Part shown: positions 39,001 through 57,762 of the stretch, piece after piece | Numbering within the stretch: the stretch's first letter is position 1 | How the letters are laid out: every line of letters begins with the position of its first letter | From: a virus | Direction: 5' to 3' (one strand) | IMG/VR virus record: IMGVR_UViG_3300009183_000069 | Span: 1 to 64,000 of that record | DNA: 64,000 nt | Translations under genes and position numbers: made by a program | The notes under the pieces: model-generated | Told to the model about the DNA's origin: nothing | Database searches by the model: none | Seen by the model: the letters and a program-made list of their open reading frames with translations, nothing else

Positions 39001-39448
39001 ATCACCTATCAAAGCTATTAGTGATGAGATAGTGTTTCACCCAGTAAAATATAAAGTATTATTTGGATCTGATGCAGTATCTAATTTACAAGCAAAATTT
39101 AAAGCAGTTAAAAACCCTGATAGAATTACAACAGACAATGATTTAAAAACAAGAATACTTTCTGCAATTAATGATTTCTTTGCATTAGAAAACTGGGAGT
39201 TTGGTCAGAGTTTTCACTTTGGTGAATTATCTACCTATGTAATGAATATGCTCACTCCTGATATTACAAACTTTATTATTGTTCCTATCACAGATACAAG
39301 TGCATTTGGAAGTTTGTACGAAGTTACATGTTTATCAAATGAATTATTCATCAGCAGTGCAAAAATTAAAGATATTGAAATTATTGATGCAATTACAGCA
39401 ACGCAATTACGATCATCATCGTCTATTATAACAACAAGTGGATCTTAA
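36071..39448 (+). CDS. gp6: Baseplate wedge protein gp6
   Basis: An 1125-residue protein. The N-terminal region YLQEKYPEEFNDYIDSSEYI, ALIDVIAYLGQNLSFRIDLN and ARENFLETAQRRDSILRLAQ is the hallmark of gp6/gpJ-type wedge proteins. It is much longer than T4 gp6 (660). Added beta-rich segments lie between residues of about 120 and 950. The C-terminal part (ADFF-type NDFFALENWEFGQSFHFGEL, STYVMNMLTPDITNFIIVPI) matches the conserved gp6 end. It forms the iris ring of the baseplate. The stop overlaps the region just before the gp7-like ATG (1-base gap). Confidence 0.92.
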   Translation: MIPSTNTKLLVSEDWKKIYQSFRNADFTSYDFETLRRTMISYLQEKYPEEFNDYIDSSEYIALIDVIAYLGQNLSFRIDLNARENFLETAQRRDSILRLAQLISYNPTRNVPASGFLKFTAISTTDSVYDSNGTNLADTTIGWNDSTNPDWYQQFINIMNSAMPSNFGNPIDRKTIDSITTEQYKISSSTQDVPVFSFSKNINGTSMNFEVVPATFSGKDYVYEDTPTPANLFSIIYKNDNQGSGSANTGFFAHFKQGTINLSTFSIGNPVINEIIGINTPDINNTDTWLWQLDKNGKYSKLWTSVPSLVGNNVIYNSVNNGIRTLYAISSRDRDQIDLNFADGIFGDLPKGNFTFFYRQSNGLTYVIKPEQMSGISVTIPYFNAAGQSHSLTITLSLQYTVTNSAGAESNASIQTKAPQIYYTQNRMITGEDYNIAPLKAGADILKIKSVNRVSSGLSKYLDLSDVTGKYSNTNIFANDGILYKEETNNIFEFEFANKNQVVAVIKNTLAPILLLPELRSFYLNYYSSIDLSTFSLLWKEVNVLANESRGYFYINSQAQSVGGSGVLGYITNGAMIQFVAPFGKYFDSNNILKITPTAGIPTNGRSYIWATVKQVIGDGSYSGQGASSNGTGPIIFSIRVPDGCIAYTVVPKFNNILSYPIESEIANICITKKNFGLTIDATTREWSIILNSNLNLSATFSLFNQNNAEEVGLDASWLISFVWTGKQYKVNYRSVNYIFESNQETSFFVDNSSVNYDFTTNKVIKDKINILSINSLAISSTTGLGNDHPWQIDGAVIQSDGYVEPKKVKVSFYDYNNTGQLYDPTSFNTIVGTQFVYFEKTAGQPGYKLSNANIIPLANEFDFSIYKNTYGANDGDLFYFYDVSLNIVKYWSSTYQKLIYTDQFFGRNGRSDIKFHYQHNSGHERRIDPSKSNLIDIYVLTTTYDNDIRNWLLGNLSTEPLPPTSQGLEQNYMETLSPIKAISDEIVFHPVKYKVLFGSDAVSNLQAKFKAVKNPDRITTDNDLKTRILSAINDFFALENWEFGQSFHFGELSTYVMNMLTPDITNFIIVPITDTSAFGSLYEVTCLSNELFISSAKIKDIEIIDAITATQLRSSSSIITTSGS

Positions 39449-39449
39449 A

Positions 39450-42400
39450 ATGGCAGATAACAAAAAATCAGTTAACCTGTTACCGGAGTATTTACAATCG
39501 GTTAAAAATTCAAAATTTTTATCAGGTACAATTGATCCATTAATTCAAACCCCACAAATAGAACGTATTGACGGGTTTGTTGGATCAAAAATATCACCTA
39601 ATTATAATATTAAAACTGATTATTATATTAATGAAGATTCTAGTCTTCGTACAAATTATTCTCTTGAACCTGCACTTATATTAAAAGATCAATCTTCAAA
39701 AATTACTGATGCAATTGCATTCGATGATTTAATTAATGAAATAAAAATTCAAGGTGGTAACACTGATAATCTTGATCTTTTATTTAGATCAAAGTTTTAT
39801 TCATACGATCCTTATATTGACTGGGATAAGTTAGTAAATTATACACATTATCATTGGTTACCAAATGGTCCAGATTCTATATTGGTAGATGATCTTAAAG
39901 CAAATATAGAAAGCACATCCACATATACAATTCTAAATAATTATTCATTAAGTAACGGAATGAAATTAAAATTGTCATCTGATAATAAAGAATATTATGT
40001 TGAAGGTGTTGGCACAAGTATTAAATTAATTGAAGTAACTTTATTAAATGTAGATGAGCTAGTAGATACAATTTATAATGAAAAATTTGACAGCGACGCA
40101 TTTGATAATTATCCATTTGATGGAGATAAAAAACTACCATTAACTGCGGAATATACTACAATTAATAGAGCTAGTATTGATTCAAATCCGTGGAGTCGTT
40201 ACAATCGTTGGTTCCATTTGGAGATAATAAGAATTACCGCAGAGATTAACAAAAGTGATTTTTTGTTATCACTTGATTCTCGTGCAAAACGACCTATTAT
40301 AGAATTTAAACCTGATATACAATTATATAATTTTGGTAATATTGGAATTGGAAAAATAGATTTAATCGACGATAATACGCTTGATGCATTTGGTAGTGTT
40401 GACGGAACACTTGGTTATTATGTTGATGGCATACTACTTGCACAAGGTAATACTGTAATTTTCAATGCTGATGTTAATGACGATGTTAGAGGAAAAATCT
40501 ATATTGTAGACTTTGATTTTAGTACAAATCCTCCCACGTTACAATTAGTAGAATCAATTAATCCTGTAGAGTTAAACTCTATTGTAATAAATTCTGGTAA
40601 CACATATTTAGGAACGTCTTGGTATTATAATGCCAATTCTCATACATGGATATATGCTCAACAGCATACTAAAATAAATCAAGCCCCGTTGTTTGACCTT
40701 TACAATCACGCCCACCAGAGTTACGGAAATACATCTACATATTATAATTCTAATTTTGTTGGATGTAAAATATTTGGATATGATATAGGTACAGGAACAG
40801 CAGATTCTGTATTAGGTTTCCCATTGAAATATCAGAATAGTGTTGGTGTAGGTAGCTATCTGTTTAAGAATTATTTCATGACTGATAGTATCATTGTTAC
40901 TAATTCTCCTAATGTTATAAGTTCGACAATTAGTACAGGTATTACTTATTTTAAAGTTAGTGACAATTATGTTAATGTATGGCAACCATCAGTGGAATAC
41001 CATACTCCAATTATAGAAATACAAGAAATTGTAAATGCTACTAATACTACTACAATTCAATCAGTTAAAGAATTTACCAATGTTTCAATATTAGTAAATT
41101 CAAAATTAACAACTGCTACTATATCAGGTTTAAATCTTACGTTCAATAACACATTAAACGTTAATGATGTAGTTTCTTTGTCAATTACATCTAATAATAT
41201 TCCTAATTCAAATGGATTCTATGAAGCACCTATTGGATTAACACACAATCCTTTAAATGGTCCAATTTCAGATATGACGTTAAGCGAACTTAGCGATCAT
41301 CTGGCCACTATGATTAACCGTATACCTGAATTTTCAGGAGACTTTCCAGGAATTAATAATTTAAGAGATTTATCTGGATATTCAAAATACGGAACACGTT
41401 TGATTGTAAATTCAAACCCTATTGCTTTTGCAAAAATGTTTTTAGGTAAAAAAGAACATAATTTAGTTGATGCAATACGATATGCCGGTGATCAATATAA
41501 TCAATTTAAAATGTATCTATTGAAATCTATTACAAATATTGATTATCAATTATCTCCCGCAGATGCCCTTGATAAAGTTTTAATTAATATTAATAATAAT
41601 AAAGATGCCCGTGCTCCTTATTATAGATCTGATATGTTAGGGTACGGCTCTAATAAAATAGTAAAATCATATATTGTTTCAAATATTAATATTGACACAT
41701 ATCCAATTGGTGTAGACTTTAATCTTTCAACATTAAGTTTTAAATCTGTTTTAGTATATATTGGTAACGAACAATTAATATATGGAAAAGATTACGATAT
41801 AACAATGGATGAAATAGTATTTCATCAAAGTTTAAATATCAACGATGTTATTAATATACATTATTATCCAGACACGCAGGGTTCATTTATACCACCTACT
41901 CCAAGTAAATTAGGTTTATATCCAACATATGCACCTATTATGTATAGTGATGACTCTTATAGAATTGATTCAAGTATTTTAGTTATAAGAGGGCATGATG
42001 GTAGCATTATGCCAGCATACAATGATTATAGAGATGCTATTATACTTGAATATGAAAAACGTGTTTTTAATAATATTAAAGTAGAATATGATGCCAAGGT
42101 GTTTGATGTTAATGCCGCATTGCCTGGTATATTTAGAAATGATAGATATTCTTTAATAGATGTAAGTTTAGAAATTCCATCAATACTAAGAAACGATGCT
42201 GCGACAAAACTATTAACCAAAGATTTTATTAAATGGACAGGTATCTATAATATAGATGCATCAACTAATAATGTGTTTGATGAAGGTGATCCATTTACTT
42301 GGAATTATAAAAATAGTTACAATACATTAACAAATACAATGCTGTCGGGTTATTGGAGAAGTATATACAAAGACTTCTTTGACACAGATAGACCTGATAT

Positions 42401-45400
42401 ACATCCGTGGGAAATGCTAGGTCATGCAAGTAAACCTACATGGTGGGATGACAACTATAATTGGATAAACCCCACAAAACGAGCTGCACTAATAAATGCA
42501 GTTGAATTAGGAATTGTTAATCCAACTACCACTGAACCGCTTATTGATAATAATTATGCTCGTCCAGGATTTGACTCTATTGTTCCAGTTGATACATCGG
42601 GTATGTTATTGCCACCTTCTGAATTTTTAGCATCTGAAAACAGTTACAATGACAAAATAGCTGATTGGAAATTTGGAGATCAAGGTCCTGCAGAAACCGC
42701 CTGGAGAAAAAGTAGCTATTGGCCATTTGCATTAAATGCAGCAGCCGCACTACTAGATCCTTGTGGTTATTCATCCTCAATGTTTGATACAAGTAGAACG
42801 TCCTTGAATAGTAATACAAGTCAATTAACTTATTTAGAAGATGATTTATATTTAAATCCTAATAAGATGGTATTAGAAGGACAATCTAATGCACAAACAG
42901 CAGGGTATGGTGTATATGTAGTTGAGGTGGGATTACAGAAAGATCTGCATTATCTTGATAAACTTCAAGACGATTTAACTTATATTAATTTTAATTTATT
43001 TCATAAGTTAGGAGGATTTGTCAGCAAAGATAAATTACAGATTGTAATTGATTCTATTGATCCAATATCTCAAGCTCCTGGTGCAATACTTCCTCCAGAA
43101 GATTACACACTGCTATTGAATACCAGTAATCCTATTAAATCTTCTAGTATATCTGGAGTAATAATTCAAAAATCTAATGGTAATTTTGTAATCAAGGGTT
43201 ACGATAAAGTTAATCCATATTTTGAAATATTATCACCTATTAAAACATTAGCAGGAGTAACATTAACTGTTGGCGGAAAATCTGAAGTATTTACAGAGTG
43301 GACAGGGGTGTCAGGGTCCTCTGGTCTTGGTGCAATTGATACTACTGCACCTGGCAATTCAGTTACTACACATTATTATAAGCAAGGACAAATTGTAAGT
43401 TATAATGGAAAATATTATAGAGTTAAAATTGGGCATACAACACAGTCCACATTTGATCCTGCATTATTTTATCAGTTACCATCGTTGCCTATGGTAGGCG
43501 GATCATCTGTGGTACGGTCGTCAAAGTTTGAAAATCAAGTAACTAAGATTCCTTACGGTACTAATTTTTCTACTATACAAGAAGTATACGACATGTTATT
43601 GGGATATGGTGCATATCTAGAAAAGCAAGGATTTATATTTGATGAGTATAATTCTGATCTAGGAGAAATAGTTGATTGGAATTTTACTGGCAAGGAGTTT
43701 CTATATTGGACCACTCAAAATTGGGCCGATGGAAATTTAATTACACTAAGTCCGTTTTCTGATTATTTAAAATATTCATTTACTGATTCTGTGGTTGATA
43801 ATATATCAACAGGCAAGTATGAATATAGTTTGTTAAAGGCTGACGGAAAATCATTTCCAATTAATAAATTTACTCTTTCTCGAGAAGATGGTGTATGTAC
43901 CGTTAAAACAATTGATACACTTGACGGTATATTCTTTGCCACATTAAATTCTGTACAAAAAGAACATGGAATGGTTATTAAGAATAAGACAATTTTTAAT
44001 GATACCATTTATGATATTGAAACAGGTTATAAACAACGTCGAATCAAATTATCAGGTTTTAGAACTTTAGGGTGGAATGGAGATCTATCTAGCCCTGGGT
44101 TTATATATGATAATGTTGATATTACAGATTGGATCGCCAATGGTAAATATCTTCCAGGAAATGTTGTAAGATATAATGGGTCTTATTACGAAGCAGACGC
44201 AAAAATTATAAATGATTCTAAATTTGATTTTACAAAATGGATAAAATTAAATAAAAAACCTGAATCTAATTTATTAACTAATTTTGATTATAAAATTAAT
44301 CAATTTGAAGATTTTTATAGTTTAGACATTGATAATTTTGATGCCACACAACAACAATTGGCACAACATCTTATTGGCTATACTCCAAGAACGTTTTTAA
44401 ATAACATCTTTACAAATAATATTAGTCAGTATAAATTCTATCAAGGATTTATTAAAGAAAAAGGTACCAAGAACGCAATTGATAAAATATCCAAAGTTGG
44501 AAAATTTGCACGTCAAGGCGACATCACGTTCAACGAAGAATGGGCATTTCGATTAGGAAGTTACGGCAGCTTTGGAACATATAACGAATTAGAATTTACT
44601 CTTGATGAAGGGAGTTCTTCAGAAAACCCATTTGTAATTAAATTTGCAGATAGTAAAGATACCAATCCGTTAATTAATTATATATTACCATCCAATTTAT
44701 TAATATCACCAGACACTTACATACCGTCATCAACATTTACTATATATCCTAGTACGTTTTCAGATAGTAATATAAAATTACCCACAGCTGGATATGTAAG
44801 ATCCGACGACGTCACTGCTACTGCCTATAACAAAAACAGTTTATTAGATATTGCTAATAATTCTTTAATACAAGAAGGAAATACATTTTGGTTAGGATTT
44901 TTAGATAACGGTGATTGGAATGTTTATCGATATACTGAAATGACTGCAAGGATTGCTGGTGTATTTGTAAGCTCACCAGCAGTTAGTATTACATTTACTA
45001 CAGATATAAATCATAATTTATCCGTAGGCGATATTGTATCTATAGTTAATTTTAACAATCAAGTTAATGGTATACATATCATCACAGATATTTCCAGGCT
45101 AGATCAATTTACAGTATCATCTGATTTAACCACAATTATCAATTCTGATTTATTAACCAATGGGTTATTATTTAAATTTGAAAAAGCTAGATATAATAAT
45201 TTTGCAGAATTATCTGACAATGCAGTGTTATCAACTTTAAAAAATGGAGAGAAAATTTGGGTCGATAACGGAAGCAACGGTAAATGGCAAGTATATGAAA
45301 AAATACAAAATTATACCACAGGGTTTGTTGAGGCTGCAACTACTTCTGTAACAGCTCAAAGATTAGGCGAGTCTATATTTACTCTTGAGAATAGTAGTAT

Positions 45401-48400
45401 TTTATTAATGTCTGCGCCCGGCAAATTTACCAATGCTCCTATATATGGAAATGTTGGCGTATATTTAAAAAATAATAATCAACTAATAAAACAATTTGAT
45501 TATACATTAAACAACCATTCTAAAATTTATTGTCAAACTGATTCTGAAAATGATTTTGGATTGTCTTTATCAATTGATGTCAACAAGGGATTATTGTTTG
45601 CAGGTGCACCTGCTGCAAGTAATATTGTAATCCCAAGTGCAAACACCAATACAACAGGTATTGCAATTTTCAGTGACGGCTCTGGTATAACAAAAACATT
45701 TGCACAAGAAGGTATTGTAAAAATTAGCAGTACTAATAAAAACTTTATTCAAGAGACTACTGAAAAAGTTTTAGTACATCCTTATGCTACTACTTCTACA
45801 ACTGCTGCCTATTCAAGATTTGGCCATTCAATATATAATAGTCAACCTAGTTCAAATACAAGTACACTTTTATTAGTAGGAGCACCTGGTAGTATTAATA
45901 GTGATAATACATATACTGGAAGAGTATATGCCTATAATGTATTAAGAGAACAATATTATAATGCAACTAAAGCCCAAGTAATATATGCACTTGCTGCTAG
46001 TTCATTGGCTCCTTTATTTTATGGAGAAGTAACTATCACAAATTGGATGGTTGCAGGCATTGATCAACTTGAGCAGTTTTATTATGAATATAGATTAGTA
46101 AATCCAGTAGACGCAGCAGCGTGGGATGCAGATAGAGCAGCAGATAACGTTGGAATTAAAAATACAAGAATAGAAGTTATTGCTGCATATCAAAATAATA
46201 TATTGGCAGAATTATATCCAAGCGAAGACAACATTAGATATTGGATGATTAATGGGATTGGACCAGATAGTAGAATTTTTAATGAGTCAGTAATAGCTTA
46301 TCGAAGTACACATCCTACAGATGCAGACAGAATTGATTCAGAAAGAGTTGCGGCAGAAAATTCAAATATACCAGCTACCAAGATTTCTGGACACCCTTCA
46401 GGTATAACTCTTAAATCTGTTGTTTCTTTAAATGCAGGTAGTCAGTTTGGACATAGCATATCTGGAGATTCTAACGGTAGTATAATAGCTGTTGGTGCTC
46501 CTTATTATATTAATACAATAAGCAATACAACTGGTGTTATACAACTTTATGACAAAAATCTTCATTGGTTTCAAAGTATACCATCGCCGTTTATAGGACA
46601 TGAAGCATTTGGTGAAAATGTTGTAATATCTTCCGATGGGACGTATCTTGTAGCATCATCTCCTGAGATAAGAGGAACTACTAATGGTACAAAAGGAAGA
46701 GTGGCAATTTATAGATTATCTGGAACAGGTATCAGAATACAGGCAAGTCGTGCATCAGTAATACTTGCTTATGCTTCAAATTTACTTGCTCCATTGTACC
46801 CTAGTGAGTTAGATATACATATATGGACAGTAGTAGGTCTTGATAGTTTTGATTCTACAATTGATAGCAATAGGGCAGCTAGCCCTGCTGCTGCCGCAGC
46901 AATAGATAAAGAAAGAGCAGCCGATTCTCTTGGAATGTTGGCATCTAGAGCTGACGTTATTATTGCATATCAAACTAATGTTGAGGCTCCTTTATATCCT
47001 ACGGAAGCTGAAATAAGATATTGGATGGCAACAGGGTTAGGTACAGGAACAAATGGATTTGCCGCAGAAATTACTTATAATAATTCAACAAATCCCTCAG
47101 CTTATGCAGCAAATCTTGCTCAGAGAATAACCCTTGCTACACCATCGCCATATCTATCAACACGTTTTGAAGTAATAAATGCTTATGCTTCAAATTTACG
47201 TGCCGAAGTAAATCCTAGTAACGGTGATATCTTATCCTGGATGACGTCCGGTCTTGGAACAAATAATATTACTTTCAATACTGATGTAGAATCTCGAAGA
47301 ACTTCTAATCCATCATTGGCTACCTCTATTGATGCAGCGAGAGCTGCGGATGCAGTAGGCACAAGTGGAGCACCAATAAGGTCTAGCAGAGCAGCAGTAA
47401 TAGCTGCTTATCAAGGTAATCTTGATGCTAATCCGTATCCAACTGAGCAAGAAATAAGATATTGGATGTCAGTAGGACTAGGATATTTGGTTGCAACAAA
47501 CAATCCATTGGGTGCATTCAACGCTGCTGTAACACGTGATAACGCACTTTATCCTGACATATATCTATCATGGCTTCAAGCTCGCGCTGCGGATTATCCA
47601 AAAGCATCTAGAGGACAAGTAATATTAGCCTATGCATCAAATTTATTAACTGAATTATATCCTAATGAAACAGCAATAAATTATTGGATGGTCCAAGGAC
47701 TTACTAATTTTGATAGTTCAAATAATACAAACAGAGCCAATGATCCGGCATTGGCTGCTGCTATTGATATGGCCAGGGCAGCAGATGCAATTAACATAAA
47801 ATCATCAAGAGCTGCTGTTATTTCTGCATATCAAACAAACGTGGATGCTCCTTTCTATCCTACAGAGAAACAAATAAGACGTTGGATGATTGCCGGACTA
47901 GATAGTAGTAGTTTTACAATTTTTAATGAAACAATTACTGCTAATAATTTAAGTAATCCTACCAATGCTGCAATATATCGTAATCAACGATTAGAAGCAT
48001 TGCCGTCTGTGGATTTTACATATGATCTTTATCAGGTTATTGACAATCCATTAAAAAATAATGATTTAAAATTTGGTAAATCTATAGCCATTAGTGACAA
48101 TAGTAACAAATTAGCCATAGGTGCAGTAGGCGTTAATGGTCCTATTCCATTAAAATTTGATATAAATTTTAAAGATGGTGAAACTACTTTTGATCAAGGT
48201 ACTACTAACTTTAGTTCGTTTGCAGAAGATTCCGGAACTGTATTTCTTTACTATAATATAGATGGATCGTTTGTTCAATCAGAAAATATTACAGACCCTT
48301 CACCGATAGCCGGGGATAAATTTGGTTATTCTGTGGCTGTTACTAACAATAATACATTTGTAGGGGCTCCATCAATATCAGGAGTTTCAAAGTTTTATCA

Positions 48401-51400
48401 GTTTAATAAAGCAGATACATCTATTAACGGTTTAAAACTTTTAAGAGAACAACCTGATCTTGTAGACGTTTCAACTATTGATAGAGTAGCATTAATAGAT
48501 TCTTTTAAAGAAGAAGTAATAGAGTATCTAGACGTTATTGATCCATTAAAAGGAAAGATTGCAGGAATTGCTGAACAAGAATTAAAATACAAATCATCAT
48601 TTGATCCTGCTGTATATTCGATTGGAAATTTAACTGCGGTAGTTGACAGTAATACAAGTTGGATCGATGATCACGTTGGTGAATTATGGTGGGATATAAG
48701 CACCGCAAAATATCAATGTTATGAGCAAGGTGATGAAATATTCAGAAAAAATAACTGGGGTAAATTATTCCCAGGTGCAACTATTGATGTCTATGAGTGG
48801 GTTAAATCTGATCTATTGCCCAGTGAATGGGCATCACAAGCAGATACCAATGATGGATTAACAAAAGGTATTAGTGGACAACCAAAATATCCTGACAACA
48901 GTATTCTTTCTGTAAAACAATTGTTTAATAATGTAACAAGATCATTTGAAAATGTTTATTTCTTTTGGGTAAAGAATAAAGTAAATGTTCCTGAAGCAAA
49001 TAATAATAGAAGAATAAGCAGTTATCAGGTTGCTAGCATTATTGCAGATCCAATTGCCAACGGTTTAAAATTTGTTGAGATATTATCTAAAGATTCAGTA
49101 GCATTTGCTAATGTACAATCTATGTTAATAAGTGATAGAATTAATGCAAATATTGCTATTAATTCTAATAAGAGTGAAATACCAAGACATACCGAATGGG
49201 AACTAATAGCAGAGGGTAATGAAAATAATATGCCACCTCCTCTGTTGGAGAAAAAACTAATAGATAGTTTATTAGGGCATGATCAATTGGGTAATAATGT
49301 TCCTGCAATTAATACAACATATAGAAATAGATATGGAATTGGTATTCGACCTCAACAAACATTATTTAAAGATAGAATAGAAGCATTGAGAAATCAAATT
49401 GCATTTGCTAATTCTGTTTTAATAAAAGAACAATTAACAGGTAACTACAATTTTAATAATCTAAATAGTTACGATACAATCTCAGATGCATTTTATAGAG
49501 AGTATGACATAGTAGTTGATTCGCTATCAACCATTGATACTCTTTTATTTGAACAAGCAACAATAAAATGTTTTGTTAACAATGGTAAAATAATATCTGT
49601 AGAAATAATTAAACCAGGCTTTGGATATCTATTAGCACCGTTGGTGACTATAAATTCAACAGCAGGAGAAGAAGCAGAACTTCTAACAGAAATAAACAGC
49701 AACGGAGAAATTATAAATGTTACAATATCTAATGCTGGATACGGTTATGTTAATGCTCCTACATTAATTGTTCGTCCTCACACTGCTATCATTAGATCGG
49801 ATAGCAATTATAACGGCCGTTGGACTAAACATATATTTGACTATATCTATAAAAAATGGAATAGAGTTGGAAATCAAAAATATGATACAAGATTATATTG
49901 GCAATATACCGATTGGATAAAAGACAGCTATAGTAAATTTAAAGACTATAGATATAGCATTGATGCTACTTATGAAATTGATACATTATCTAATGTATCC
50001 GTTGGAGACTATGTACGAATTAAAAATATAGGCGATGGCAGATACGCTATTATTGAAAAATTAGCCGATACAGAAATTGGTGACTTTTCTAAATCATACA
50101 ATTTTGTTTATATAGAAAAAGGAACAATACAAATAAAAGATTCAATATGGAATTTTTCTAATATAAATGTTTCTTATGATTCATCTACTTTAGAAGATAC
50201 ATTATATGATCAAGTGCCTGATTTAGAATTATATCATATATTGCTGGCATTAAAGGATGATATCTTTATTGGCAATCTTAAAGTCAATTGGAATTTGTTC
50301 TTTTTCAAAGCAGTAAAGTATGCATTAACAGAGCAAAAAATATTAGATTGGGCATTTAAAACTTCGTTCATTGATGTATATAATTCAATTGGTAATTTAG
50401 ATCAGCGTCCGGTATATAAACTTGACAACGAAAAATATTTTGAAAATTATATTGAAGAAGTTAAACCTTATCACACCAACATAAGAAGATTTACTTCTAA
50501 ATATTCATCTGTAGAAGAAACTTCAACTCTTTCTTTTACTGATTTTGATGTACCATCAGCTTCTTGGACTGCTGCTCATAGTTATTGCGTTGGTAATATT
50601 ATAGTTGCAGATCCTGGTACTTTATATACTCAGAAACCGACAATTACAATATCCGGTGGCGGCGCCAATGTTACTCCTGCTACCGCAGAAGCCTACATTA
50701 GAAGCGGCGTCGTCTATCAAATACTTGTAACAGATCCTGGAGCAGGATATACTGAAACTCCAACAATTACAATATCGGGTGGCGGTCCTTATGTTACTTC
50801 CACTGCATCTGTTTCAGTCTCATTATTGAATTTAACCACAAGAAAAAATATTATAGGATTAAAATTTGATAGAGTTAGTGCAGTATCTGAAATAGGCAAT
50901 GTAGATGTCACTGAAGAATTTATATGTTCAGGAAAAGATACAAAATTTGTATTGTCTGTTTTAGCCGACCGTAATAAATTAAATATTATTCCAAGTCTTG
51001 ATGGACAATTGGTATTGTCAACTGATTATACAATAGAATATTACTCTGAAGAAAATAATGGATATACAAAACATTATTCAAGATTTGTATTTTTAAATTA
51101 TGTTCCTAAAGAAACTCAGGTATTTAAAATAACATATAAAAAGAATATTAATTTATATACCGCAGTTGATAGAATAGAAAATCTATACACAGCCACTGAC
51201 TCAATTTCGTCATTAATGAATGGAGTTGTTTATCCAGGTAATGTTATACAAGGATTACCGTTTGATTATTCTCCAGCTTGGGATACTGTTTCTGGATTAG
51301 GAAAATACGACCCAATAAACTCAGGATGGAGTGATAGTGTTGGATACTATGCATCTGCAAAAATAGTAAGTTCAGTAGCAGCAGGCGATACAACAATCTA

Positions 51401-54400
51401 TCTTAATACAACTACCGACATTGTTGTTGGACAAATAATTAGTCTATTAAATTCTCCAACTTCAAATCTACGCAAAGATACAGTTGTTAATTCTGTTAAC
51501 TCTTTGAATAATTCTATTACAATAAGTCAAACTTATTACGCAATTAAATCTGTTAGAGCAACATCAACAAATATTAATTCTGATATTGTTGTTATAACCG
51601 TTGTTCCGTTTAATGGAGCAATTGTAGTTGGGGATTTGATTTCACTAGATGGAATTGAGAAAACTGAATTTAATGGAATATATTATATTTCAAGTATTAC
51701 AGATAAAAATAAGTTTATTGTAAAATCTAATTCAGTATTATCAACTACAGCAACAGTACTTACATATGGTGAAGCAAGCATTACAATATCTTCTATGCTA
51801 GGTAGCATTGACACAGATAGTGTATTACTAGATCATATATCTGAAACATTTATTCCTGATGATAATAATCATATAGAAGTTGATATAATGTTGCAGTATG
51901 ATGATATTACTAAAATTGAAATATTTAAAGACGGCGAAACTTTGCCAATGCTTACTGGAATTCCAATTGTAGGACCATATCCTACCAGTGAATATTATCA
52001 TATAACAAAAAATGTAATTACTGGTGGTGCTATAGTAAACTTCTATCAAATGACCAGCAATAGTTATGATTTAGATTTCTACTCGTATACCAATCCAAAA
52101 CTTGAATTCTGGAAAACTGATGTATTATCTGCAAGATTAGATTCTGTATTACCTGGTGGCTCCGTTAACTGGGGTAATTTTGCCGGAGGACTAGGCGTTC
52201 GATATGGAACAGTTTTACCCGAAGAAGGCACCAATTCTATAATTATAGATGGCGATTCATTCTTAAATGAAAGATCAGGATATGCACCTGATGAATGTGT
52301 AGCTGGACACGTATTAGATAGCTTAGGTATTAATGTTTATACCAAAGCTGAAAATTCTTATCCTACTGTTATAACTGGCTCATTCCCTGTAAAAAAAGGA
52401 ACACTAACTGCTTATGAATTAAGTGTACCCGAAACAGAGTATGCAGGCATAATGGTTAATTTTAATGGAAAAATATTTGATAGAGTTGATAATGCTACCC
52501 AATTTACAAATTCTCATCAATATTATATGATTGGGAATACAATCCATCTTCCACTACAATCTGTATCTGGAACAGCTGGATATACAATGGTTTCTATAGG
52601 TGGTAATTATTCTTTACTCGATAGCAATATTGAAGGAGTATCTGGTGTTACATCTGCTACTGTAATAAGTTTGTTGTCAAGTATCAACGATGTTGTTATG
52701 GCTTATGTATTAGTCGACGGTCATGAAATTTCTCAAGATACTCCAGAATCAGGTGATACAAAATATTATAAATTAACTGCTTATAGTAATAAAAATAATA
52801 GAGCAAGTGTACAAGTTTATGGTATTGATACTAATTCACATACCATTGAGGCTTGGTTCTTCCAATCTAAATATACAAAATTTAATAGGTTACACGAAGA
52901 ATCACAAGACGGATCAGCTTCCCAATCAATGTTTACTCTTTCTTTTGTACCAGGAAATATTGAGCCAGTAAGCGCTCAAGTAATAGTTGAAATAGATGAT
53001 GGCAGCTCAGGAAGAAGAAGATTATCACCACCTTGGGTTAGTTATTATCAAATTAAAGATGCTCAACTAACATTTGCAATTGATAGTAAGAATTTATCAC
53101 GTACATATACTGCTGGTCAAGTAATGGTATATGCAAATGGAATAGAATTGCGTCCTGGATTTGATTATACATTTAATGATATTGATAGTACAGTAACAAT
53201 CATTTCTGGACTACTGAGTATAGGTGATGTTATTGCAGTAGTAGGATTAATTGATTATGACTATATTGTAGTTGGTAATATATTACAGTTAACAAACCCA
53301 CCTGTTAGTACTTTTAATTTAAAAATTATATCATTTACTGATCATGATAAAATGTTAATTAGAACAGAAAGATTTAACGGAACAATTGCTCGACGTTATA
53401 CACTATCTTTCTCTGTATTGTCTGATAATTACGTTTGGGTATATGTTGATGGAATTTCATTAACTGCTAGAACAGAGTTTGAAATTCTTGATGACATGAA
53501 AACTATTCAGATAAGTGATTTGATTGATGTTTCCCCAAGTTCAAAAATAACAATTACCACAGTTAATCCACAATCTTATAACAATCAAATTATTGGATTT
53601 AGAATGTTTAATGATATTTTTGATAGACATCATTATAAGAGACTATCAAAATTTCATAGCACAACGTTGTTACGTGCATTAAGACATACTGATAATGAAA
53701 TTTATCTAACTGATGGCAATGGAATAATTCCGCCTAATCCATTAACTAACAATCCTGGTATTGTTATAATTGATGGTGAGCGTATTGAATTTGCAGAAAA
53801 AGATGGAAATACTTTAAGAGGTCTAAGAAGAAGTAGTCTAGGAACTGGGCCTGCCACTTATTCAGCAGTTGGAACACAAGTAATAGATCAAAGTTCACAA
53901 CAAACAATACCTTATCTTGATACAATATTAGTACAGTCGACCTCTACTACAAGTACAACCTACATTATTAGTACAGTAACTACTACCGCTACAGGTGCCG
54001 GAATTGTTTTAGATCCAAATATTGATGCTGTAAATCAGGTTACTGTATATTACGGCGGCCGTCAATTACGTAAAACATCTTTGGTTGTTCATGATAAGTT
54101 CTATGACAAACCTGTATATAATCCAGACCCTAGAACAGCATATATTTTGATTTTTGGGCAATCTAATATAGCTAATTACGGCGAACATACAGATAGTTAC
54201 ACACCCAATGATAAAGTAAAACGTCTTGATATAAATGGTAATTGGGAACTTGCTGTATCGCCAGGCGGTCCTAACAGATTGGCCACAGGATATAATTGGA
54301 GCACTGGCTCATCAGTAGATATACCAGGAGGACCATCCGGAGGCAACATGGATGGAAGAATTGGTGATACTCTTCTTCAGAGTGGAAAGTATGACAAAGT

Positions 54401-55223
54401 TTACATTGTTAACGTTGCAGTCGGAGGTATACCACTAGCTTGGTGGCTCAGTACTGCATTACCTTCTGCGTACCTTGGAGGAGTTCCGAGAAATGAAGAT
54501 AATTTCCCGTATGTTAATAATAGACTCTTTGAAAGACTACAATTTGCAGTCAGCAAAGCCAACGAGCTTGGATTTGAATTCACACACGTTTTATATGGCG
54601 CAGGCGAATCAGATTCAATCGCTCCTAATATTACACCGTCGGATGTTTATCAAAGCAGATTTGCACAACTTAGAAATGAACTTAGAACATTGGGTGTAAC
54701 TGCTCCTATATTCATCAGCAAAACATCTTATTTTGTAAATCCTCCATATACCACTGACATTATAACTAATGCACAGCAAGCCATAGTTAATAATTATTCA
54801 GATGTATATCTTGGACCAAATACGGATCTGTATGGAGATAGTTATCGTTGGGATCATTTACATTTTAAAACATCAGGATTAAGTGCAATTGGCAGTACAT
54901 GGGGTAATACAATCGTTGATACCTTAACATCATTTGATCCTGTTGCTCCTGAGTTCTCTATAAACACATCTACTAATGAATTGTTGTTAAATATTTCAGA
55001 CTATAATGGAATACCCACAAATATTACCATCATACAGAAAAAAGGACAAATTTGGACAGGAACAGAATCGTTATTAACCAGTAACGTAATACAAGCTGAA
55101 TTCTTACAAGATAGAAAATCTCTATTACCGGATATATATTATTATGGTGGAGAGTCAGTGCTTAAAGATAATGATAATGTAATCATCACTGACGACAACG
55201 ACCAACCCTTAGAAGGATATTAA
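39450..55223 (+). CDS. Giant gp7-like baseplate wedge protein with propeller, helical repeats and esterase
   Basis: A 5257-residue protein from the ATG at 39450 (MADNKKSVNLLPEYLQSVKN); a GTG four codons earlier overlaps gp6. Position after gp6 and N-terminal blocks (SRYNRWFHLEIIRITAEIN near 248, RAKRPIIEFKPDIQLYNFG near 280) fit the gp7 type of aquatic T4-like phages; T4 gp7 has 1032. Residues of about 1985-2985 hold seven FG-GAP-like blades (e.g. FGHSIYNSQPSSN...LLVGAPG, FGYSVAVTNNNTFVGAP), interrupted by eight ~70-residue helical repeats. Two GxGY...PTITISGGG modules lie near 3715-3790. Residues of about 4895-5165 form an SGNH/CE6-type esterase (GQSN with Ser4905, GESD, DHLH with Asp5135/His5138). 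It would build the wedge and possibly contact or deacetylate surface glycans (inference). Confidence 0.8.
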   Translation: MADNKKSVNLLPEYLQSVKNSKFLSGTIDPLIQTPQIERIDGFVGSKISPNYNIKTDYYINEDSSLRTNYSLEPALILKDQSSKITDAIAFDDLINEIKIQGGNTDNLDLLFRSKFYSYDPYIDWDKLVNYTHYHWLPNGPDSILVDDLKANIESTSTYTILNNYSLSNGMKLKLSSDNKEYYVEGVGTSIKLIEVTLLNVDELVDTIYNEKFDSDAFDNYPFDGDKKLPLTAEYTTINRASIDSNPWSRYNRWFHLEIIRITAEINKSDFLLSLDSRAKRPIIEFKPDIQLYNFGNIGIGKIDLIDDNTLDAFGSVDGTLGYYVDGILLAQGNTVIFNADVNDDVRGKIYIVDFDFSTNPPTLQLVESINPVELNSIVINSGNTYLGTSWYYNANSHTWIYAQQHTKINQAPLFDLYNHAHQSYGNTSTYYNSNFVGCKIFGYDIGTGTADSVLGFPLKYQNSVGVGSYLFKNYFMTDSIIVTNSPNVISSTISTGITYFKVSDNYVNVWQPSVEYHTPIIEIQEIVNATNTTTIQSVKEFTNVSILVNSKLTTATISGLNLTFNNTLNVNDVVSLSITSNNIPNSNGFYEAPIGLTHNPLNGPISDMTLSELSDHLATMINRIPEFSGDFPGINNLRDLSGYSKYGTRLIVNSNPIAFAKMFLGKKEHNLVDAIRYAGDQYNQFKMYLLKSITNIDYQLSPADALDKVLININNNKDARAPYYRSDMLGYGSNKIVKSYIVSNINIDTYPIGVDFNLSTLSFKSVLVYIGNEQLIYGKDYDITMDEIVFHQSLNINDVINIHYYPDTQGSFIPPTPSKLGLYPTYAPIMYSDDSYRIDSSILVIRGHDGSIMPAYNDYRDAIILEYEKRVFNNIKVEYDAKVFDVNAALPGIFRNDRYSLIDVSLEIPSILRNDAATKLLTKDFIKWTGIYNIDASTNNVFDEGDPFTWNYKNSYNTLTNTMLSGYWRSIYKDFFDTDRPDIHPWEMLGHASKPTWWDDNYNWINPTKRAALINAVELGIVNPTTTEPLIDNNYARPGFDSIVPVDTSGMLLPPSEFLASENSYNDKIADWKFGDQGPAETAWRKSSYWPFALNAAAALLDPCGYSSSMFDTSRTSLNSNTSQLTYLEDDLYLNPNKMVLEGQSNAQTAGYGVYVVEVGLQKDLHYLDKLQDDLTYINFNLFHKLGGFVSKDKLQIVIDSIDPISQAPGAILPPEDYTLLLNTSNPIKSSSISGVIIQKSNGNFVIKGYDKVNPYFEILSPIKTLAGVTLTVGGKSEVFTEWTGVSGSSGLGAIDTTAPGNSVTTHYYKQGQIVSYNGKYYRVKIGHTTQSTFDPALFYQLPSLPMVGGSSVVRSSKFENQVTKIPYGTNFSTIQEVYDMLLGYGAYLEKQGFIFDEYNSDLGEIVDWNFTGKEFLYWTTQNWADGNLITLSPFSDYLKYSFTDSVVDNISTGKYEYSLLKADGKSFPINKFTLSREDGVCTVKTIDTLDGIFFATLNSVQKEHGMVIKNKTIFNDTIYDIETGYKQRRIKLSGFRTLGWNGDLSSPGFIYDNVDITDWIANGKYLPGNVVRYNGSYYEADAKIINDSKFDFTKWIKLNKKPESNLLTNFDYKINQFEDFYSLDIDNFDATQQQLAQHLIGYTPRTFLNNIFTNNISQYKFYQGFIKEKGTKNAIDKISKVGKFARQGDITFNEEWAFRLGSYGSFGTYNELEFTLDEGSSSENPFVIKFADSKDTNPLINYILPSNLLISPDTYIPSSTFTIYPSTFSDSNIKLPTAGYVRSDDVTATAYNKNSLLDIANNSLIQEGNTFWLGFLDNGDWNVYRYTEMTARIAGVFVSSPAVSITFTTDINHNLSVGDIVSIVNFNNQVNGIHIITDISRLDQFTVSSDLTTIINSDLLTNGLLFKFEKARYNNFAELSDNAVLSTLKNGEKIWVDNGSNGKWQVYEKIQNYTTGFVEAATTSVTAQRLGESIFTLENSSILLMSAPGKFTNAPIYGNVGVYLKNNNQLIKQFDYTLNNHSKIYCQTDSENDFGLSLSIDVNKGLLFAGAPAASNIVIPSANTNTTGIAIFSDGSGITKTFAQEGIVKISSTNKNFIQETTEKVLVHPYATTSTTAAYSRFGHSIYNSQPSSNTSTLLLVGAPGSINSDNTYTGRVYAYNVLREQYYNATKAQVIYALAASSLAPLFYGEVTITNWMVAGIDQLEQFYYEYRLVNPVDAAAWDADRAADNVGIKNTRIEVIAAYQNNILAELYPSEDNIRYWMINGIGPDSRIFNESVIAYRSTHPTDADRIDSERVAAENSNIPATKISGHPSGITLKSVVSLNAGSQFGHSISGDSNGSIIAVGAPYYINTISNTTGVIQLYDKNLHWFQSIPSPFIGHEAFGENVVISSDGTYLVASSPEIRGTTNGTKGRVAIYRLSGTGIRIQASRASVILAYASNLLAPLYPSELDIHIWTVVGLDSFDSTIDSNRAASPAAAAAIDKERAADSLGMLASRADVIIAYQTNVEAPLYPTEAEIRYWMATGLGTGTNGFAAEITYNNSTNPSAYAANLAQRITLATPSPYLSTRFEVINAYASNLRAEVNPSNGDILSWMTSGLGTNNITFNTDVESRRTSNPSLATSIDAARAADAVGTSGAPIRSSRAAVIAAYQGNLDANPYPTEQEIRYWMSVGLGYLVATNNPLGAFNAAVTRDNALYPDIYLSWLQARAADYPKASRGQVILAYASNLLTELYPNETAINYWMVQGLTNFDSSNNTNRANDPALAAAIDMARAADAINIKSSRAAVISAYQTNVDAPFYPTEKQIRRWMIAGLDSSSFTIFNETITANNLSNPTNAAIYRNQRLEALPSVDFTYDLYQVIDNPLKNNDLKFGKSIAISDNSNKLAIGAVGVNGPIPLKFDINFKDGETTFDQGTTNFSSFAEDSGTVFLYYNIDGSFVQSENITDPSPIAGDKFGYSVAVTNNNTFVGAPSISGVSKFYQFNKADTSINGLKLLREQPDLVDVSTIDRVALIDSFKEEVIEYLDVIDPLKGKIAGIAEQELKYKSSFDPAVYSIGNLTAVVDSNTSWIDDHVGELWWDISTAKYQCYEQGDEIFRKNNWGKLFPGATIDVYEWVKSDLLPSEWASQADTNDGLTKGISGQPKYPDNSILSVKQLFNNVTRSFENVYFFWVKNKVNVPEANNNRRISSYQVASIIADPIANGLKFVEILSKDSVAFANVQSMLISDRINANIAINSNKSEIPRHTEWELIAEGNENNMPPPLLEKKLIDSLLGHDQLGNNVPAINTTYRNRYGIGIRPQQTLFKDRIEALRNQIAFANSVLIKEQLTGNYNFNNLNSYDTISDAFYREYDIVVDSLSTIDTLLFEQATIKCFVNNGKIISVEIIKPGFGYLLAPLVTINSTAGEEAELLTEINSNGEIINVTISNAGYGYVNAPTLIVRPHTAIIRSDSNYNGRWTKHIFDYIYKKWNRVGNQKYDTRLYWQYTDWIKDSYSKFKDYRYSIDATYEIDTLSNVSVGDYVRIKNIGDGRYAIIEKLADTEIGDFSKSYNFVYIEKGTIQIKDSIWNFSNINVSYDSSTLEDTLYDQVPDLELYHILLALKDDIFIGNLKVNWNLFFFKAVKYALTEQKILDWAFKTSFIDVYNSIGNLDQRPVYKLDNEKYFENYIEEVKPYHTNIRRFTSKYSSVEETSTLSFTDFDVPSASWTAAHSYCVGNIIVADPGTLYTQKPTITISGGGANVTPATAEAYIRSGVVYQILVTDPGAGYTETPTITISGGGPYVTSTASVSVSLLNLTTRKNIIGLKFDRVSAVSEIGNVDVTEEFICSGKDTKFVLSVLADRNKLNIIPSLDGQLVLSTDYTIEYYSEENNGYTKHYSRFVFLNYVPKETQVFKITYKKNINLYTAVDRIENLYTATDSISSLMNGVVYPGNVIQGLPFDYSPAWDTVSGLGKYDPINSGWSDSVGYYASAKIVSSVAAGDTTIYLNTTTDIVVGQIISLLNSPTSNLRKDTVVNSVNSLNNSITISQTYYAIKSVRATSTNINSDIVVITVVPFNGAIVVGDLISLDGIEKTEFNGIYYISSITDKNKFIVKSNSVLSTTATVLTYGEASITISSMLGSIDTDSVLLDHISETFIPDDNNHIEVDIMLQYDDITKIEIFKDGETLPMLTGIPIVGPYPTSEYYHITKNVITGGAIVNFYQMTSNSYDLDFYSYTNPKLEFWKTDVLSARLDSVLPGGSVNWGNFAGGLGVRYGTVLPEEGTNSIIIDGDSFLNERSGYAPDECVAGHVLDSLGINVYTKAENSYPTVITGSFPVKKGTLTAYELSVPETEYAGIMVNFNGKIFDRVDNATQFTNSHQYYMIGNTIHLPLQSVSGTAGYTMVSIGGNYSLLDSNIEGVSGVTSATVISLLSSINDVVMAYVLVDGHEISQDTPESGDTKYYKLTAYSNKNNRASVQVYGIDTNSHTIEAWFFQSKYTKFNRLHEESQDGSASQSMFTLSFVPGNIEPVSAQVIVEIDDGSSGRRRLSPPWVSYYQIKDAQLTFAIDSKNLSRTYTAGQVMVYANGIELRPGFDYTFNDIDSTVTIISGLLSIGDVIAVVGLIDYDYIVVGNILQLTNPPVSTFNLKIISFTDHDKMLIRTERFNGTIARRYTLSFSVLSDNYVWVYVDGISLTARTEFEILDDMKTIQISDLIDVSPSSKITITTVNPQSYNNQIIGFRMFNDIFDRHHYKRLSKFHSTTLLRALRHTDNEIYLTDGNGIIPPNPLTNNPGIVIIDGERIEFAEKDGNTLRGLRRSSLGTGPATYSAVGTQVIDQSSQQTIPYLDTILVQSTSTTSTTYIISTVTTTATGAGIVLDPNIDAVNQVTVYYGGRQLRKTSLVVHDKFYDKPVYNPDPRTAYILIFGQSNIANYGEHTDSYTPNDKVKRLDINGNWELAVSPGGPNRLATGYNWSTGSSVDIPGGPSGGNMDGRIGDTLLQSGKYDKVYIVNVAVGGIPLAWWLSTALPSAYLGGVPRNEDNFPYVNNRLFERLQFAVSKANELGFEFTHVLYGAGESDSIAPNITPSDVYQSRFAQLRNELRTLGVTAPIFISKTSYFVNPPYTTDIITNAQQAIVNNYSDVYLGPNTDLYGDSYRWDHLHFKTSGLSAIGSTWGNTIVDTLTSFDPVAPEFSINTSTNELLLNISDYNGIPTNITIIQKKGQIWTGTESLLTSNVIQAEFLQDRKSLLPDIYYYGGESVLKDNDNVIITDDNDQPLEGY
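45957..46375 (+). repeat. Helical repeat array 1 (2 units) within the gp7-like gene
   Basis: Two ~70-residue units (residues about 2170-2309) of the form xxVIxAYxxNxxAxLYPSExxIxYWMxxGI...NPxxAxxxDxxRAADxxGI. They are inserted between propeller blades 3 and 4. Confidence 0.75.
46730..48007 (+). repeat. Helical repeat array 2 (6 units) within the gp7-like gene
   Basis: Six diverged ~70-residue units (residues about 2427-2853). Unit openings are SRASVILAYASNLLAPLYPS, SRADVIIAYQTNVEAPLYPT, TRFEVINAYASNLRAEVNPS, SRAAVIAAYQGNLDANPYPT, SRGQVILAYASNLLTELYPN and SRAAVISAYQTNVDAPFYPT, each followed by (I)RYWM-type helices. The array lies between propeller blades 5 and 6. Confidence 0.8.
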
Positions 55224-55224
55224 A

Positions 55225-57762
55225 ATGACAAAAATAACTCAAGCACCATTTATTACACCAGGAGAAAATACCAGTATTGTGGTAACAGATTCCTTGGCAG
55301 TATCAAGGGTGCGATATAGCGATCTCTTAACTCAATTATCTAGTGATGTTCAGGGAGTTCAAGGTGCTCAGGGTAGTTCTACTGGTAGTCAAGGTACACA
55401 GGGTATACAAGGTATCCGTGGATTTCATGGTACTCAAGGAACCAATGGGAGAGCAGGTAGTCAAGGTATACAAGGTATATCTGGATCTGCAGTTGCACAA
55501 GGCGCTCAGGGCGCTACTGGACTACAAGGTATACAAGGTATTAGAGGAACAACTAGCGTTTCTGCTATAACAACAGATGTATTACCAACTACAACTAATA
55601 CATATGATATAGGATCACAAGCTGCTATCTGGAAAAATATATATGCCGCAAGTATTAAAAATGCATCAGGCGTGTCTTTAATTGGTGAAAGAGAAATAAG
55701 TGTAAGAGACTATGGTGCAACAGGTAATGGTATAGATGACGATACAGTGGCCATACAAAATGCTATCAATGCTTGTAGTTCAGCAGGCGGCGGTATAGTT
55801 CGCATTCCGTCAGACTTTAGATGTTTGGTCAATAGTGCAGACATTACTATACCATCAAGAGTGGCATTAGTTGGTACAAATATAATGCCGAGCATTGTAT
55901 CAGTTGCAGGCGGCGCCGATTATAATATTAGCGGTTACAAAAGTACAATAATTTTAAATCCAACATATAAAATTAATATATGCAATACAGTCAGAGCGCA
56001 TTCTGGATCTGTTAAGGGTTTATATATATTGAAAAAAGGACTTGTTAATTTAGCCGGATTAAGTACAGGTGCTGCTAACACTCAGGTATCTAATTTTTCA
56101 GGTACTGCTATTAACATAGGGCTTTCAGGATACAACACTTCTGATTGTTATGTAGGGCATTGCCATATAACAGGATTTGCTCAAGCAATAAGAGCCACAA
56201 ACTCTGATAGAATTACCATAGAAAATATCACCGGTGATTGTACAAATGGATTATGGATCACAGATAGTTATGATATTGCTCGTATAAGAAATTGTCATTT
56301 CTGGCCATTCTTATCTTATGGATATACTGCTACAACTCCATGGAGAGATGGAACCTCATATAAATTTGACGGTACAAATGATTGGACAGTAGTAGATAAT
56401 TGTTTTTCTTTTGGATATAAATTTGGATTTAATATTGGAGTTGGATCAAACCATGTAACACTTACTAACTGTGGTGTAGATGGAGACCCTGCATCTACCG
56501 CCGATGCAGGTCGTGTAGACTCCGTAGCATTTTGGATAACAGGTGCTTGTTGTAGTCTTATTAATTGTAATGCAACAACACATCAATGTAATTTCTTAAT
56601 TGATTCTGGAAATTATGATACACGATTAACAGGTTGTACTGCCTGGGGCGCCAATGTATCTTTTTATCATGTTTATATAAATTCAGGAATAGCAAACATA
56701 ACGGAATGCTCATTTAATGATGCAGTAATAAATTGGGCAATTGCAATAGGTGCAGCTACCGTAGGATTTAACATCGACAATAATGTATTCAATGGTACTA
56801 CTAAAGGTATACAATTTGAAAATCTTAATCTAACAACACATAAAGGAAATATAGGATCTAATAATCGTTATATTGATACTACCGTTGGTATTAATAATAC
56901 AAATTTAGGTGTAGGGCCACAAACTAGCTACTTTACTAGAAGATTTATTCTTGGATCAGATCCAGCAGGTGCTGCTACTTCTAATATTGCTCATATTGAT
57001 GTAGCAGGCCGAGGCGTACCAAGTGTACCGGTATCATTAAAAGGGTTGGATATTATAACTAGATCCGATGCGTATGGATATAATGGAGTAGATTGGCAGA
57101 TGGCTGCGTCTACAAGAGTACAAGTAGATTATAGTCCTGGTGGAGCATCTCTTCCTGGAAATTACGTTCCTACTGCTTTTATTATTTCAACTACTGGAAT
57201 TGGTGATACTACTGTAATAGATAGAGTATATGTAAACAGTGAAGGAAAAGTATTACCATCAACTGATAACTCATATGATTTAGGTAGTTCAACTTTAAGA
57301 TGGAAATCAGTATATGCTGCAAATGGAACCATTAATACATCAGATCGAAGATTAAAAACTGAAATTGCTACGTCAACTTTGGGATTAGATTTTATCAATG
57401 ATCTTCGACCTGTATCATATAAATGGATTAATGGAGGAACAAAAGTTGTTCGACAAGTTTACTTAGATGAAAACGGAAATGAATTACCAGACAATCAAGT
57501 AACTCCCGAATCTAAAGCAAGACCTAGTAGAATTATTACCGAAGATGTGTCTGGAAACAGAACGCATTGGGGATTAATTGCACAAGAAGTTAAAGAAACA
57601 CTAGATAAAACTGGTGTTGATTTCGGCGGCTGGATATTATCTGACATGAATAATGTTAATAGCACCCAGCATATAAATTATTCAGAATTTATAGCACCAC
57701 TTATTAAAGCAGTACAAGAATTATCTGCCGAATTAGAAGCAGTTAAATCAAAATTGCAATAA
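55225..57762 (+). CDS. Tail fibre/spike: collagen-like, pectate-lyase-like, S74 chaperone
   Basis: An 845-residue modular fibre. Residues of about 43-112 are collagen-like GxQ/GxxG triplets (GTQGIQGIRGFHGTQGTNG). EISVRDYGATGNGIDDDTVA near 156 starts a pectate_lyase_3-type right-handed beta-helix continuing to about 600. Residues of about 704-845 form a Peptidase_S74 intramolecular chaperone: SDRRLKTEI near 706 with the Ser-Lys dyad, then FINDLRPVSYKWINGG and THWGLIAQEVKETL. The chaperone would trimerise the spike and cleave itself off. It starts one base after the giant gene's stop. A receptor-binding or depolymerising role is inferred. Confidence 0.88.
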   Translation: MTKITQAPFITPGENTSIVVTDSLAVSRVRYSDLLTQLSSDVQGVQGAQGSSTGSQGTQGIQGIRGFHGTQGTNGRAGSQGIQGISGSAVAQGAQGATGLQGIQGIRGTTSVSAITTDVLPTTTNTYDIGSQAAIWKNIYAASIKNASGVSLIGEREISVRDYGATGNGIDDDTVAIQNAINACSSAGGGIVRIPSDFRCLVNSADITIPSRVALVGTNIMPSIVSVAGGADYNISGYKSTIILNPTYKINICNTVRAHSGSVKGLYILKKGLVNLAGLSTGAANTQVSNFSGTAINIGLSGYNTSDCYVGHCHITGFAQAIRATNSDRITIENITGDCTNGLWITDSYDIARIRNCHFWPFLSYGYTATTPWRDGTSYKFDGTNDWTVVDNCFSFGYKFGFNIGVGSNHVTLTNCGVDGDPASTADAGRVDSVAFWITGACCSLINCNATTHQCNFLIDSGNYDTRLTGCTAWGANVSFYHVYINSGIANITECSFNDAVINWAIAIGAATVGFNIDNNVFNGTTKGIQFENLNLTTHKGNIGSNNRYIDTTVGINNTNLGVGPQTSYFTRRFILGSDPAGAATSNIAHIDVAGRGVPSVPVSLKGLDIITRSDAYGYNGVDWQMAASTRVQVDYSPGGASLPGNYVPTAFIISTTGIGDTTVIDRVYVNSEGKVLPSTDNSYDLGSSTLRWKSVYAANGTINTSDRRLKTEIATSTLGLDFINDLRPVSYKWINGGTKVVRQVYLDENGNELPDNQVTPESKARPSRIITEDVSGNRTHWGLIAQEVKETLDKTGVDFGGWILSDMNNVNSTQHINYSEFIAPLIKAVQELSAELEAVKSKLQ

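Follow-up and report, generated by a model that had tools for sequence, protein, structure and literature searches.

An integrin-like beta-propeller in a lake phage's giant virion protein accepts helical modules at two equivalent turns; this architectural statement is the safest that we can make. The DNA analysed, hereafter called the window, is a stretch of 64,000 nucleotides (positions 1 to 64,000) of the 80.6-kb IMG/VR record IMGVR_UViG_3300009183_000069. The propeller is encoded within an ORF of 5261 aa that is unbroken across the whole region (Table 1), and the region is best explained as an integrin-alpha-type seven-repeat FG-GAP propeller located between two conserved blocks of the giant protein, which belongs to a T4-like lineage of jumbo phages.

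The phrog_10938 profile matches the giant ORF on both sides of the propeller (E 8e-243 and 4e-72) and covers most of the protein. Members of this family are virion structural proteins, placed by PHROGs in the category head and packaging. The ORF sits directly after a gp6-like wedge gene (phrog_10646, E 7e-287), which is itself preceded by genes for a gp5-like hub/lysozyme and a gp25-like protein (phrog_43), and a comparable gene order is found in seven named jumbo phages that encode a homologue of the giant ORF. In T4, gene 6 of the 53-5-25-6 cluster is immediately followed by the gene encoding gp7, and the giant ORF occupies this position here. The initial annotation as a gp7-like baseplate wedge protein agrees with the gene order and with phrog_10938, but similarity to T4 gp7 was sought in PDB and not detected; a profile built from 24 homologous N-terminal halves retrieved zero T4 baseplate chains. 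The gp7 name is thus used here on the grounds of gene order only. A match to phrog_36107 (E 8.5e-4) spans as few as 12 residues and was dismissed as chance.

The giant protein has a SASA/SGNH carbohydrate esterase domain at its C-terminus (window 54090-55220, + strand, E 2.5e-9) with the blocks GQSN, GESD and WDHLHF. A weak CBM5/12-like stretch of the chitin-binding type is present in its N-terminal half (window about 43374-43440, + strand), with weak matches also to the CBMs of chitinases and deacetylases. The next gene (window 55225-57762, + strand) encodes a tail fibre/spike with collagen, pectate-lyase-like and intramolecular chaperone (Peptidase_S74) domains. Elsewhere in the window, an ORF of 1861 aa (4775-10360, - strand) gave a sub-threshold match to Phycobilisome alone (E 0.001).

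Seven blade starts had been read from the sequence, and all of these are borne out at the claimed places. Six carry an FG motif (45555, 45819, 46446, 46608, 48072 and 48321), and the first is degenerate, reading LGESI at about 45.37 kb. The AlphaFold model of the region (1150 residues; pLDDT 77.6, pTM 0.56) contains seven repeats of four strands each, where the grouping of strands into repeats is our own, made from the AlphaFold strand list together with the FG motifs. With these middling scores for the whole region, the model is unreliable as to where the helical arms lie relative to the propeller. Pfam FG-GAP_2 was found above cut-off in the window and in the three relatives tested. Furthermore, a propeller profile made from 26 regions matches integrin alpha-4 (E 1.6e-13) as well as other integrin alphas, and a Foldseek search of PDB with the propeller model returned integrin alpha chains for the entire top 40 (E 2e-8 to 1.5e-5, probability 1.00). 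The region therefore has the seven FG-GAP/Cage repeats of four strands that characterise the integrin-alpha-type propeller, and it is related to the solved integrin alpha propellers by sequence as well as by fold. Structure prediction, which had been proposed as a check, likewise gives a seven-repeat propeller, putatively a closed ring, whose nearest solved relatives are integrin alpha chains.

Table 1. Features of the giant ORF and its propeller region (window positions).
Feature	Position	Strand	Basis
Giant virion structural protein, gp7-like by gene order	39438..55223	+	phrog_10938 family
FG-GAP repeat 1	45375..45503	+	AlphaFold strands, sequence
FG-GAP repeat 2	45555..45776	+	AlphaFold strands, sequence
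FG-GAP repeat 3, strands 1-3	45819..45950	+	AlphaFold strands, sequence
Helical unit 1, type A, pair 1	45960..46157	+	Profile match, tree, four helices (AlphaFold)
Helical unit 2, type B, pair 1	46158..46370	+	Profile match, AlphaFold, tree
FG-GAP repeat 3, strand 4, past insertion	46374..46391	+	AlphaFold strands
FG-GAP repeat 4	46446..46583	+	AlphaFold strands, sequence
FG-GAP repeat 5, strands 1-3	46608..46736	+	AlphaFold strands, sequence
Helical unit 3, type A, pair 2	46740..46937	+	Profile match, tree; in modelled pair, pLDDT 95
Helical unit 4, type B, pair 2	46938..47147	+	Profile match, tree, modelled pair
Helical unit 5, type A, pair 3	47154..47363	+	Profile match, AlphaFold, tree
Helical unit 6, type B, pair 3	47379..47600	+	Profile match, AlphaFold, tree
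Helical unit 7, type A, pair 4	47601..47798	+	Profile match, AlphaFold, tree
Helical unit 8, type B, pair 4	47799..48008	+	Profile match, AlphaFold, tree
FG-GAP repeat 5, strand 4, past insertion	48009..48044	+	AlphaFold strands
FG-GAP repeat 6	48072..48290	+	AlphaFold strands, sequence
FG-GAP repeat 7	48321..48455	+	AlphaFold strands; best-scoring Pfam FG-GAP_2 stretch here

Integrin alpha propellers carry Ca2+ motifs of the type Dx[DN]xDG in several blades. The phage propeller differs in this respect, as no full copy of the motif was found in the blades of 26 relatives, where the nearest similar motifs fall outside the blade turns. It also differs in residing in a virion protein, and our literature search found no description of FG-GAP propellers in phage tails.

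The helical units lie at 45960-46370 and 46740-48008. The count of eight units of about 70 residues given in the initial annotation holds (each is 66-76 aa long), but they are not eight equivalent repeats. Together with the units found in another protein, described below, they form two clades, A and B, with a tree support of 98/96, and the A-B order is strict throughout. The module is thus the AB pair, of about 136 aa, rather than the single unit, and the window holds four such pairs, a single one in repeat 3 and a tandem of three in repeat 5. The AlphaFold model of the pair, made from 23 aligned pairs, has eight helices, four per unit (pLDDT 95.0, pTM 0.87). A profile of the eight units recovers each of them in the window (E 5e-25 to 2e-30) and also detects independent copies in other phages, down to about 1e-26, and positions occupied by W, R, P and Y are kept across distant copies.

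That the helical repeat had not been recognised at first sight is in keeping with the database searches. Searching Pfam and NCBIfam with the helical units, up to E 10, gave chance matches only; PDB sequences gave nothing convincing, a match to a capsid chain (E 0.019, 30 residues) being dismissed as chance; and Foldseek with the AB-pair model against PDB and BFVD gave nothing at E below 1. The AB pair is a helical module family absent from Pfam, NCBIfam, PDB and BFVD.

DUF4214 (PF13946) occurs in tandem in bacterial proteins, and the AB unit could be a strongly diverged module of this type, forming a new branch of the family, a reading that would be compatible with a role in display. The two have a similar length of about 70 residues, DUF4214-like modules are the alternative insert at the same turns in two relatives (L015 and L016), and they are found beside AB arrays in one protein of the contigs L067 and L274. 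In addition, the registers align, P-E-x-x-I-x-x-W with P-D-x-x-G-L-x-x-W, where 1/200 column shuffles scored as high. However, none of the eight units has a Pfam match to DUF4214 up to E 10, none reaches the curated cut-off, and AB units fall under every DUF4214 threshold. The hhalign probability was 3.3% for the AB units as compared to 92.6% for the phage DUF4214-like modules (the DUF4214 comparison set consisted of 36 sequences, taken from genomes in the same order as a Methylococcales MAG). Judged from the sequences, a distant common descent is possible, but inclusion of the AB unit in the family is somewhat doubtful.

In the AlphaFold model, repeats 3 and 5 each give off their AB pairs after the third strand and resume with the fourth, so that both insertions occupy the same beta3-beta4 turn of their respective repeats, a turn of 5-10 residues in bare relatives. 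The helical units had been placed between blades 3 and 4 (two units) and between blades 5 and 6 (six units); these counts stand, and the place is corrected to the inside of repeats 3 and 5. Every helical insertion among 26 aligned propellers is found at beta3-beta4 of either repeat 3 or repeat 5, and most other loops of these propellers vary by a few residues. In the same alignment, the turn of repeat 3 is 111-148 aa long with a helical insertion versus 5-10 aa otherwise (139-148 residues when carrying one AB pair), and that of repeat 5 is 115-435 aa versus 5-9 aa (147-435 residues when carrying one to three AB pairs).

The beta1-beta2 and beta3-beta4 loops of the integrin blade lie at its calcium-site end, opposite the FG/GAP end (PMC3192720), and by analogy the AB pairs would protrude from the corresponding face of the phage propeller. 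Insertion of this kind in a baseplate wedge protein was initially regarded as new. There is a precedent for a domain inserted into an FG-GAP propeller, since the alphaI domain of integrins sits between blades 2 and 3 (PMC3192720), but it uses a different loop: the phage insertions are located at beta3-beta4 of repeats 3 and 5 and not in the interblade loop 2/3. Moreover, the phage insert is helical and unrelated to vWA. In three relatives (L028, L036 and L058) an Ig-like-looking insert, for which Pfam gave nothing, is located in the loop between repeats 6 and 7, which is the same interblade kind of position as that of integrin alphaI.

A profile search, combined with loop lengths, gave 0, 1 or 3 AB pairs per site across the relatives, and the copy number, which was to be checked, does vary. 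L007 is like the window with one plus three pairs, and L006 has three pairs at repeat 5, its contig stopping near repeat 4. One plus one pair is found in L011 and L017, a single pair in repeat 3 of L008, L009 and L010, and a single pair in repeat 5 of L012. L038, L047 and L057 have one pair at repeat 5 with an extra beta-rich insert within unit B, and in thirteen of the aligned relatives both turns are free of modules. A DUF4214-like module replaces the AB pair in repeat 5 of L015 and in repeat 3 of L016 (in the latter with 15.8 bits, under the cut-off), and L058 has another insert at the repeat 3 turn. The turns of repeats 3 and 5 are hotspots for AB pairs, DUF4214-like or other modules.

The blades of L011 and L017 are 99% identical; nevertheless, unit 2 differs between them. 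The tail of unit 2 in L011 equals that of unit 4, and L017 has a unit 2 without this tail, a pattern as expected if the B units in L011 had been homogenised within the protein. The beta-rich domain nested in unit B of L038 and L057 (L038:11354-13966, L057:11759-14341) is about 120 aa long and adds up to three insertion levels (protein, propeller and unit). It looked PA14-like by eye, but Pfam and PDB gave no support for this identity. DUF4214-like modules are also contained in the preceding ORF, at the gp6 position, of L014 (1-2994) and L016 (1-2757).

Outside the propeller, two AB pairs are found in a second virion-type protein, a He_PIG/Calx-beta protein of 1783-1964 aa encoded by the viral contigs L067 (199 kb) and L274 (109 kb), which also holds two DUF4214-like modules among its beta domains. 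AB pairs are thus shared with the window, whereas the scaffold protein is unrelated. The gp7 of L067 and L274 is distant, about 3700 aa long and without a propeller; therefore, propeller and module are not tied together. The presence of two AB pairs in the He_PIG/Calx-beta protein of this second lineage indicates that the AB module is mobile.

The phrog_10938 proteins of RaK2, PA5oct, Atu_ph07 and their relatives are homologous to the giant protein over ~1900 residues before and 700 residues after the propeller, with comparable gene order, but the propeller is missing there. Neither propeller nor helical units were found at the gp7 position of the named phages (RaK2, the PA5oct group and Atu_ph07), and no propeller was found at this position in the seven phrog_10938 homologues examined. 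The stretch between the conserved flanks in named phages measures about 30 to 1500 residues and has no recognisable FG-GAP repeats; it is about 116 aa long in RaK2 and about 30 aa in XaC1. Atu_ph07 and Phosso (L059 and L062) have about 1400-1500 aa rich in 'GxGYxxxPxVxI' repeats at the position of the propeller, and the propeller site of the giant protein is thus itself a hotspot for large insertions. A tblastn search of 50,697 phage records (INPHARED) with the bare propeller matched only the conserved segment after it, and the helical units had no convincing match in the phage records. Scanning 84,980 bacterial and archaeal genomes for the unit pattern yielded 52 matches, all of them by chance, and not one real unit. 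Weak matches in ORFs of ~330 aa (E about 0.01-1) were dismissed, as these apparently represent one common family sharing a DNA pattern. Among the matches listed in the viral pattern scan, the spread of the unit in viruses comprises at least the carriers given here.

When the unit codons of the window are compared with those of L006, 77, 42 and 144 changes are found at positions 1, 2 and 3, respectively (431 codons). This excess at the third position indicates that the arrays are constrained protein, under purifying selection. In two pairs compared, the units are 77% and 55% identical where the blades are 75% and 51% identical; in other comparisons the units are somewhat faster than the blades, and both change faster than the segment after the propeller. 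As units evolve about as fast as blades, the modules give no clear indication of an arms race.

The blade-like rate at which purifying selection acts on the AB units would also fit a structural role, in which the arrays, as helical spacers or docking arms, would bind neighbouring baseplate or tail-fibre proteins and tune the geometry without touching the host. The strict AB order suggests a geometric unit, and the occurrence of the module in another large multi-domain protein is consistent with this as well. Close relatives, however, manage without the module at one or both sites, and unrelated modules at the same turns are difficult to reconcile with one specific partner for docking, which makes this role unlikely. 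That the arrays are functionless passengers, arising from duplications or transfers tolerated in an exposed turn, would agree with the free variation of presence, absence and copy number among relatives but is quite improbable in the face of the codon pattern (144 third- versus 42 second-position changes) and the conservation of W, R, P and Y.

The best explanation, to which we give moderate confidence, is that the propeller is a virion scaffold whose display loops are exchangeable and probably make contact with the host. In repeats 3 and 5, the beta3-beta4 turns serve as acceptor sites for exchangeable modules. The ends of the self-contained AB pair would fit a turn as short as that of the bare relatives, so that the blade would stay intact when modules are gained, multiplied, exchanged or lost. 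We infer that the modules are exposed at the surface: the propeller would keep them outside the tail tip, in contact with the host surface or with other tail-fibre parts, and recombination may be the mechanism that moves them between sites, proteins and phages. The existence of relatives without any module in the propeller alignment indicates that modules are dispensable for assembly. The proposed display role is supported by the variation in presence and absence, the exchange of modules, their sharing with another large beta-domain protein of phages, and the surface-carbohydrate modules of the same chain, a SASA esterase and a weak CBM5/12. More tentatively, and with a fair chance of being wrong, the AB pair may be an undescribed helical fold that is mobile between unrelated beta-rich virion proteins and between equivalent turns of one propeller, where it rivals DUF4214-like and other modules, as part of a plug-in display system that jumbo phages would carry on an integrin-like propeller. 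No known binding function was found among relatives of the unit.

The usual place to look for variable host-recognition regions of phages is the tip of the tail fibre. The present case is a baseplate-region protein with two defined acceptor turns, at which modules appear, vanish and increase in number. The model is concrete and testable as to how jumbo phages may vary their surface, and the propeller is a naturally occurring case of modules inserted into the turns of such a fold, useful for protein engineering. Our analysis suggests that this lake phage protein is an interchangeable surface-display platform on the virion.
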